NCBI GenBank assembly: GCA_020850535.1
Contig: JADZEM010000135.1
Coordinates: forward strand, 1 to 64,000
Reading direction: 5' to 3'
DNA from: Chloroflexota bacterium
Lineage (GTDB): Bacteria > Chloroflexota > UBA6077 > JACCZL01
DNA length: 64,000 nt
The notes beneath the pieces are model-generated. The model saw only the letters and a list, made by a program, of their open reading frames with translations. It did no database searches and was not told the DNA's origin. The position numbers and the translations under genes were made by a program. Positions 8,536-60,712 of the stretch are shown here, one piece after another (positions within the stretch are counted from its first letter, which is position 1; each line of letters starts with the position of its first letter).

Positions 8536-8630
8536 CTGCGTACCACCAATCGCCAAGCCGCACGAGCAGAAGTGCTATCGGAGGGCCCTCACCCGCCAGC
8601 CCCCTCCGCTGCGCGGCACGCCGTCATGGC

Positions 8631-46608: not shown

Positions 46609-46720
46609 GGACGGACGGCCCTCACCCCCAACCCAGTCGAGCCACCGGGCCTGTGCGCGGGGGAGGGAGCGAATAATCGGCCTGGGGGCGGAGGGCACGC
46701 CCTGGGTTCAACGTGCTGAT

Positions 46721-49463: not shown

Positions 49464-49539
49464 CCAGCGTGCGGCGACAGCCAGAAAGCTTCGTGGGCAT
49501 TGCGCCCTCCGCGTCACGAAGCGACAGCATGATGGTAGA

Positions 49540-49557
49540 CGGGGGTTTCAACCCCCG
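49540..49557. terminator. CGGGGG-TTTCAA-CCCCCG hairpin
   Basis: Perfect 6-bp GC stem with 6-base loop, 8 bp beyond the stop of the minus-strand gene ending at 49565. Likely stops its transcription, although no U-run is present. Confidence 0.5.
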
Positions 49558-49564
49558 ACATTGC

Positions 49565-50407: not shown

Positions 50408-51730
50408 CTATCCAAATCCAACCCGACGGCCGGCCTTCAGCACCAGCAGCCGGGGCGGGTGCGCCGCCACCGCCTCCGCGCCGTTCTCGGCGTCTACCAC
50501 CACCAGGTCGGCCGCGGCTCCTACCTCCACGCGCACCGGCTCCAGCCCGAGCAGGCCGCTGTTCACGTCGGTGATCGTCTCCAGCGTCCGCAGCAGCCCG
50601 GCATCGGTTCGTAGATTGTTCCGGTAGGCTACCAGGAACGCCTTCTCCAGCACGTCCCCTCGCGCGAACGGCGACCACGAATCGTGGACGTTGTCCGAGC
50701 CGATCCCCAGCCGCACCCCGGCCGCCCAGAGCGCCGGCGCGGGAGGGACCGCCGCTGCGCCTGAGGCCGCCGTGATCGCCGAGACGCCCGCGCGCGCCAT
50801 CCGCTCCAGCACCGGCTGGACCTCCCCGAGCGGCCGATCTCCCAGCGCGAAGGCGTGGCTCACCGCCACCTTGCCGCCGTAGCCCGTCTGCTCGGTCCAG
50901 GCGCAGATCCGCCCGATCTCGAACAGGCCGAGCGTGCCGCCATCGTGCAGGTGGATGTCGATGTCCGCGCCGAGCCGAGGGGCCAGCGTGAACAACAGCC
51001 GAAGGTGCGCCTCGATGTCGCCGTCGTAGCCGGCCGGGTCCAGGCCCCCGAGGACCGTGCAGCCCATCCGCAGCGACTCTTCCAGCAGCCCGGCCACGCC
51101 CGGCGCGATCGCGCCGTCCTGCGGAAAGGCTACCAGTTGGATGTCCAGGTCGCCGGCGAAGCGCTCGCGGACCTGGAGCAGCGTCTCCACCGACGACAGC
51201 CCCAGGCCGGGCGTCACGTCGGCATGGCTCCGCAGCGCCAGCGTCCCGAAGCGCCGAGCCGACTCGGCCAGCGCCGTTGCGCGGTCCAGCACGGTGCGCG
51301 TCGTCCGGTTCTTGAGGAGGTCTTCGGCGGCGGCCACGCGCTCGGCCAGGGTGCGCGTCTCCGGCAGCCCGATCCACGGCTCGCCCATCAGCGTCTTGTC
51401 AAGGTGCATGTGGGCATCGACGAAGCGCGGCAGCACCACGCGCCCGCCACCGTCGTAGAGAACCTCACCCCCCGGCCCCCGGAGAAGGCCCTCACCCCCC
51501 GGCCCCCTCTCCCTGTGCGCGGGAGAGGGGGAGACACGAAACTCTCGTGCGTCTCCCCCTCTCCCGCGCACAGGGAGAGGGGGCCGGGGGGTGAGGGCCT
51601 TCTCCGGGGGCCGGGGGGTGAGGGCCTCCCGGGGGGTGAGGTCAACGATCCGCCCGTCCGCGATCCCGATGCTGACCGGGCCGCTGCCGTCCGGCAGCCG
51701 CACGTTCGTCAGGCGCAGCCGCTCAGCCAT
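50408..51730 (-). CDS. Amidohydrolase (cytosine deaminase-like) carrying an in-frame palindromic insertion
   Basis: About 440 residues. Metal ligands of the amidohydrolase superfamily are visible: VDAHMHLDKT (HxH), LRSHADV, DIDIHLHDGG (His) and GIGSDNVHDSW (Asp), the cytosine-deaminase/isocytosine group pattern. These enzymes hydrolyse amino-heterocycles; the true substrate is unknown. Between the first beta domain (GIADGRIVDLTP) and the strand VLYDGGGRVVLPRFVDAHMH about 55 residues such as ALTPRPPLPVRGRGG and SPSPAHRERGPGGEG are encoded by an inserted family B palindrome. The insertion keeps the reading frame and sits in a surface loop of the N-terminal domain, so the enzyme may still fold. 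ATG 51730 has GGAGG 9 bases upstream. Confidence 0.85.
   Translation of the reverse strand: MAERLRLTNVRLPDGSGPVSIGIADGRIVDLTPREALTPRPPEKALTPRPPLPVRGRGGDAREFRVSPSPAHRERGPGGEGLLRGPGGEVLYDGGGRVVLPRFVDAHMHLDKTLMGEPWIGLPETRTLAERVAAAEDLLKNRTTRTVLDRATALAESARRFGTLALRSHADVTPGLGLSSVETLLQVRERFAGDLDIQLVAFPQDGAIAPGVAGLLEESLRMGCTVLGGLDPAGYDGDIEAHLRLLFTLAPRLGADIDIHLHDGGTLGLFEIGRICAWTEQTGYGGKVAVSHAFALGDRPLGEVQPVLERMARAGVSAITAASGAAAVPPAPALWAAGVRLGIGSDNVHDSWSPFARGDVLEKAFLVAYRNNLRTDAGLLRTLETITDVNSGLLGLEPVRVEVGAAADLVVVDAENGAEAVAAHPPRLLVLKAGRRVGFG
51463..51623. repeat. Family B palindrome, 73-bp perfect arms, inside a CDS
   Basis: Arms 51463-51535 and 51551-51623 are perfectly complementary over 73 bp, with a 15-base loop. 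The arm runs CCTCACCCCCCGGCCCCCGG then a second CCTCACCCCCC unit and CTCTCCCTGTGCGCGGGAGA. An extra GGGGGGTGAGG follows at 51632. The same CTCTCCCTGTGCGCGGGAGAG module occurs at 60.5 kb. It lies in frame within the amidohydrolase gene. Confidence 0.95.
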
Positions 51731-60518: not shown

Positions 60519-60712
60519 CCCTCACCCCCCGACCCCCTCTCCCTGTGCGCGGGAGAGGGGGAGGCGGTACAGGCGCCGATTTCACATCTCTGAGCGACGA
60601 GGGTCGGGACTATCTTGGTCGCTGCAATCATGCTCCCCCTCTCCCGCGCACAGGGAGAGGGATGTCGACGCAGTCGATAGTTGCGCCGCGCAGCGGTCGG
60701 GGGGGTGAGGGC
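60519..60712. repeat. Family B palindrome between cysD and cysN
   Basis: CCCTCACCCCCCGACCCCCT and CTCTCCCTGTGCGCGGGAGAG on the left pair with CTCTCCCGCGCACAGGGAGAG (60636-60660) and GGTCGGGGGGGTGAGGG on the right. The arms are interrupted by a non-palindromic insert near 60663-60690. An untranslated copy of the element that lies inside the amidohydrolase gene. It separates two genes normally translated together. Confidence 0.85.

Follow-up and report, generated by a model that had tools for sequence, protein, structure and literature searches.

The palindrome at positions 51463-51623 of the window (the whole stretch of 64,000 nt that was analysed) probably belongs to a non-coding palindromic repeat family with a high copy number, as a copy that consists of the apex only. 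In structure, it is an inverted dimer, heads outside, of a unit of the intrastrand-triplex type. It lies in frame within a gene for an amidohydrolase. The features concerned are as follows.

50408-51730, minus strand: amidohydrolase of 440 aa (Pfam Amidohydro_3; nearest solved relative 6nbo)
51463-51624, minus strand: net insert of 162 nt, codons about 36-89 of the amidohydrolase (LTPRPPEKALTPRPPLPVRGRGGDAREFRVSPSPAHRERGPGGEGLLRGPGGE), from the orthologue alignment
51463-51623, no strand: the palindrome as a whole, with a 15-nt loop between perfect arms of 73 nt each, from arm pairing and folding
51463-51488, plus strand: extra head with local flank (CCTCACCCCCCGGCCCCC-GGAGAAGG), forming a tandem of 27-nt period with the core head
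51489-51597, no strand: core dimer of 109 nt (the modal length), two inverted units with heads outside
51489-51533, plus strand: unit 1, CCCTCACCCCC-CGG-CCCCCTCTCCC-TGTGCGC-GGGAGAGGGGG-AG (head, 3-nt spacer, hairpin stem, 7-nt loop, stem)
51553-51597, minus strand: unit 2, the inverted partner of unit 1
51598-51624, minus strand: mirror image of 51463-51488, an extra head with flank at a 27-nt period on the opposite side
51625-51641, minus strand: third head, partial, with an 18-nt period; it marks the junction to the sequence of the enzyme proper and encodes LTPREA
60519-60711, no strand: second copy, an inverted pair in which the linker is long and one unit holds a 35-nt block, located between cysD and cysN

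The palindrome with 73-bp perfect arms claimed in the first-pass annotation is real: the arms (51463-51535 and 51551-51623) are reverse complements at 73/73 positions and can be extended to 78 nt at 97% (51458-51535 and 51551-51628). Folded as single-stranded DNA, the 161 nt reach -119.5 kcal/mol, compared with -43.8 for shuffles (z = -21.8). Its in-frame position within an enzyme gene is likewise borne out, with a gain of 54 codons where about 55 had been estimated. The insert occupies a loop that follows the first strands and precedes the metal-binding DAHMHLDKT of the amidohydrolase, whose nearest solved structure is the N-isopropylammelide isopropylaminohydrolase 6nbo (E 9e-65). An orthologue comparison, proposed in the same annotation, showed that the closest orthologue, from genome G002 (same family), lacks the insert. 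The insert-free query is 54% identical to it over query residues 2-382, and the N-terminal 34 residues and the remaining protein both match it, with nothing between. The 54-residue stretch is found in no homologue of the amidohydrolase alignment, the G002 orthologue included, and the solved homologues align from residue 83 onward only; conservation of these residues as a normal domain in unrelated orthologues, which would speak against an insertion, was thus not encountered in this comparison. A tblastn search with the insert peptide against plasmids gave nothing. A single-sequence structure prediction (pLDDT 37.7) is too poor for placing the insert.

It is unlikely that the insertion disabled or split the gene, with the hairpin blocking transcription or translation so that nothing useful, or a shorter protein from a downstream start, is made. 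In mRNA, a perfect 73-bp hairpin (with the above energy as DNA) could stall ribosomes or polymerase, and GTG codons are present just downstream of the insert. However, the minus-strand frame runs without a stop across the palindrome, 440 codons are open with the catalytic motifs intact, and the sequences on both sides are in one frame. A downstream start would also lose N-terminal strands that are kept by the orthologues. Moreover, all head spacings in the two copies of the repeat that lie inside genes are multiples of three (27, 27, 18, and 30), as are about half of those in other copies.

The repeat itself consists of a 45-nt unit (consensus CCCTCACCCCCCGGCCCCCTCTCCCTGTGCGCGGGAGAGGGGGAG; layout CCCTCACCCCC-N3-CCCCCTCTCCC-N7-GGGAGAGGGGG), and the 109-nt core is an inverted dimer of two such units. 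Dimers and units were counted in 762 kb fetched around unit matches in genome G000, and pattern searches covered the whole genome. In the 762 kb, a unit profile search with a threshold of E<1e-3 detected 131 units; 44/46 neighbouring unit pairs are inverted with heads outside (+,-), the others being one (+,+) and one (-,+) pair. The dimer is exactly 109 nt long in 24/38 cases, and the 11-nt stems and 7-nt loop (TGTGCGC/GCGCACA) are nearly invariant across 48 units. Genome-wide, the exact pattern occurs 52 times forward and 47 times reverse, with 0 and 0 in the control. Allowing 3 mismatches at most, the search gives 74 heads in forward and 73 in reverse orientation, compared with 56 and 51 in the read-backwards control, a high background that is probably due to the C-rich, mirror-like motif. 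A structured-RNA family was rejected as the identity of the repeat, as Rfam gave no match in the window; a related copy gave only sub-threshold miRNA-hairpin matches. Phage records searched for the repeat contained no match.

The suggestion that the same module occurs untranslated at 60.5 kb is correct in part. Both units are present at 60519-60711, between the cysD and cysN frames, but the linker is much longer, one unit carries the 35-nt block, and an internal GTG at 60585 could in principle start a longer CysN. The 35-nt block (GCTGCGCGGCGCAA..CGACTGCGTCGACATC) occupies the same place in another copy (C13:24700, L142). Degenerate fragments of the palindromic repeat are found at window positions 8581-8615 and 46614-46667.

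Judged by the hexamer coding score on both flanks, most copies are intergenic, often 10-60 nt beyond a stop codon. In stretches where about 85% of the sequence is coding, 36/38 dimers lie outside genes and 2/38 inside, which is far below chance (P about 1e-27); insertion or survival is therefore strongly biased away from genes. Genes run into the element in a few cases (e.g., at C191:21243) and may gain a tail from it. The only two dimers in a frame open on both sides are the 51463-51623 copy and one at C152:21954, whose host is a membrane glycosyltransferase-like protein (weak Pfam PMT_2 match, 19.9 bits against a 26.1-bit cut-off). The in-frame copies share one reading frame (LTPRPPLPV...SPSPAHRERG), and dimers or units are in frame in unrelated proteins of other taxa (see below), as would be expected of a dedicated protein-coding palindromic element, similar to those of Rickettsia and kept for the added peptide. 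Such an element is very unlikely given the scarcity of intragenic dimers against the 85% coding background; besides, the dimer sequence is open in two of three frames anyway. The in-frame copies are exceptional and would therefore represent a rare tolerated insertion. The parallel with Rickettsia drawn in the first-pass annotation is fair for the 51463-51623 copy, but it does not extend to the family.

One or more extra tandem heads are present in 16/38 dimers. Their period is mostly constant within a site but differs between copies (e.g., 27,27; 24,24; 20,20; 23,23), which points to local duplication and not to the import of a fixed unit. The two arms differ at 2.69 positions within a copy versus 3.87 between copies (0/20,000 permutations), and symmetry continues for at least 6 nt past the element boundary in 5/37 copies, compared with 1.2 expected. 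Quasipalindrome template switching is a known process capable of such arm homogenisation (PMC7202029). The concordance of the arms and the local head duplications would be compatible with replication slippage and template switching at the hairpin; alternatively, the concordance could result from a recent spread from symmetric founder copies. Active correction, one of two origins that had been proposed for the perfect arms, fits both the concordance and the symmetry past the boundary, while a recent spread of symmetric founders is an alternative. An assembly artefact, in which a short-read assembler wrongly closed the palindrome, is a very unlikely explanation: many copies are at contig ends, and one near a contig end (C165) is symmetric for at least 40 nt past the element, but the 51463-51623 copy lies deep in a 187-kb contig, flanked in the same frame by N-terminal and catalytic parts that match the orthologue.

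For some dimers, the palindrome continues outward into arms GTCGGGGNTTGATGAAGATTGA (18 forward and 18 reverse, control 0), so that the dimer forms the apex. Several of these longer composites have CAGGGCGATTGC/GCAATCGCCCTG at their ends, which are also the terminal repeats in a separate MITE family. This family is very abundant, with 446 exact CAGGGCGATTGC ends in the 7.65 Mb of genome G000 (reversed control 0), a modal length of 217 nt (e.g., L319:1501-1717, L321:1501-1717, and L323:1501-1717), and 10-bp TSDs in 7/14 paired members versus 0.08 expected. The dimers checked for TSDs have no clear excess of direct repeats, and the combination of TIR and TSD typical of a MITE was not found for them; it is the long composites that share the TIR. 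The window contains no CAGGGCGATTGC end, and the 51463-51623 copy is without the outer composite parts. At window positions 49511-49559, there is a 49-nt piece of the 217-nt MITE (84% identity).

A RAYT/Y1 transposase was rejected as the mover of the repeat. No PF01797 (Y1_Tnp/RAYT) gene was found in genome G000, and the presence of Y1_Tnp and that of the repeat are uncoupled across 31 Chloroflexota genomes: the unit is matched exactly 82 times in G059 (Herpetosiphon giganteus, 100% match) and 127 times in G067, both without Y1_Tnp, whereas G119 has one Y1_Tnp and no copies. No unit was found in 20 loci (up to 3.4 kb) around Chloroflexota Y1_Tnp genes. In Herpetosiphon, too, the dimer serves as the apex of an element, here about 200 nt long and with other outer arms, and a comparison of filled and empty orthologous sites shows that G119 and G067 lack one such element. 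G119 has no exact unit match, compared with 82-128 in its congeners G059, G067, G098, and G126, to which it is 82-90% identical at the DNA level in one compared stretch. Filled and empty sites in these closely related genomes offer a tractable system for studying the movement of a repeat without an evident transposase.

Among the matches listed, the taxa with the 43-nt pattern (stems of 11 nt, loop of 7 nt) include Chloroflexota, Armatimonadota, Bacteroidota (Cytophagaceae), Planctomycetota, and Acidobacteriota; the preference for outside heads is not general in those other taxa. In annotated plasmids, in-frame dimers or units are found in a ParE-UvrD fusion of Pseudanabaena, a DISARM methyltransferase, and a DUF559 protein, and further plasmid cases are Nostoc pglX and a Planktothrix DUF1156 protein. 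In the Pseudanabaena fusion (L285:1-2195), the ParE-like toxin domain is joined to the UvrD helicase via a linker made up of several head-derived repeats (SPPSPLSQNSLSYGNSLP) and one dimer. The plasmid-borne 3-hydroxyacyl-CoA dehydrogenase of the betaproteobacterium Vitreoscilla also contains an in-frame case; it matches a Pfam domain of 69 positions, but the match breaks off at position 40, where the insert lies. Two Nostoc pglX genes (about 85% identity) are without the stretch, and the change replaced about 34 nt.

These observations suggest that the repeat spreads as small non-autonomous DNA and survives mainly between genes, sometimes as the apex of longer terminal-inverted-repeat composites. 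One dimer would have entered the amidohydrolase loop ahead of the metal-binding strand, and the enzyme presumably tolerated it because the net length was a multiple of three and the frame stayed open. Afterwards, replication slippage and template switching at the hairpin, which is very stable, might have duplicated the heads and homogenised the arms. Against this explanation, there is no TSD signal at the dimers, and transposition of the apex alone is putative; the sole fine-scale empty site for an intragenic copy, that of Nostoc pglX, represents a replacement and not a clean insertion.

A more far-reaching and doubtful proposal is that the triplex-type hairpin unit is one DNA module, present in at least seven bacterial phyla, which forms the apex of unrelated lineage-specific palindromic elements and is spread by replication template switching and not by a transposase of its own. 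If so, the in-frame insertions in Chloroflexota, Cyanobacteria, and Betaproteobacteria would be repeated by-products of template switching.

Among known systems, Rickettsia palindromic elements include cases read in frame, and nearly half of those of R. conorii are located in ORFs (PMC10969869). The resemblance consists in a palindrome of about 150 nt translated within unrelated proteins; the repeat described here belongs to a different family and does not have the large in-gene share, with only 2/38 dimers. REPINs or REP dimers (PMC3116915) are similar in that a short linker joins two palindromic units in inverted orientation and the copies are scattered, near gene ends; the inverted dimer in many copies is found here in 44/46 adjacent pairs. 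Unlike REPINs with RAYT, genome G000 has no cognate Y1 transposase (PF01797). GTAG/CGTC-tagged REPs are mostly intergenic, near ORF 3' ends, and sometimes lie in genes, such as uvrA and dnaE2; REPs within genes are known from several species (2013, PMC3733652). They are short palindromes as well, but the unit consensus CCCTCACCCCCCGGCCCCCTCTCCCTGTGCGCGGGAGAGGGGGAG has no GTAG or CGTC tag.

The closest counterpart is TM/TMECO, which was reported from 262 proteobacterial genomes, and from proteobacteria only; in E. coli K-12, all of its copies were reported to be intergenic (Holder et al. 2015, PMC4666352). The order of parts is the same and the letters are nearly so (CCCTCACCC, a 3-nt spacer, a CCCTCTCCC stem, a loop, and GGGAGAGGG), and both repeats have many copies and a patchy distribution between close relatives. 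The TMECO layout, with a C-rich stem, a G-rich stem, a third G-rich strand, and a 3-nt second loop, is reproduced by the Chloroflexota unit on its reverse strand. The sizes differ, since TMECO has stems of 9 nt and its first loop measures 3-6 nt, as opposed to 11-nt stems and a 7-nt loop, and so does the dimer, which has heads outside in the Chloroflexota genome but inside in most neighbouring pairs of the E. coli K-12 TMECO table. As far as the open-access literature searched shows, the kind of repeat is already known; what is new for the triplex-type motif is the form of its dimer, the phyla that host it, and the cases in which it is coding. The range of the E. coli-type triplex repeat thereby comes to include Chloroflexota and several other phyla, with a dimer form that is new. 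Judging from the reading frames, it may also become protein sequence, as in the amidohydrolase, the glycosyltransferase-like protein, cyanobacterial defence methyltransferases, and the betaproteobacterial 3-hydroxyacyl-CoA dehydrogenase.
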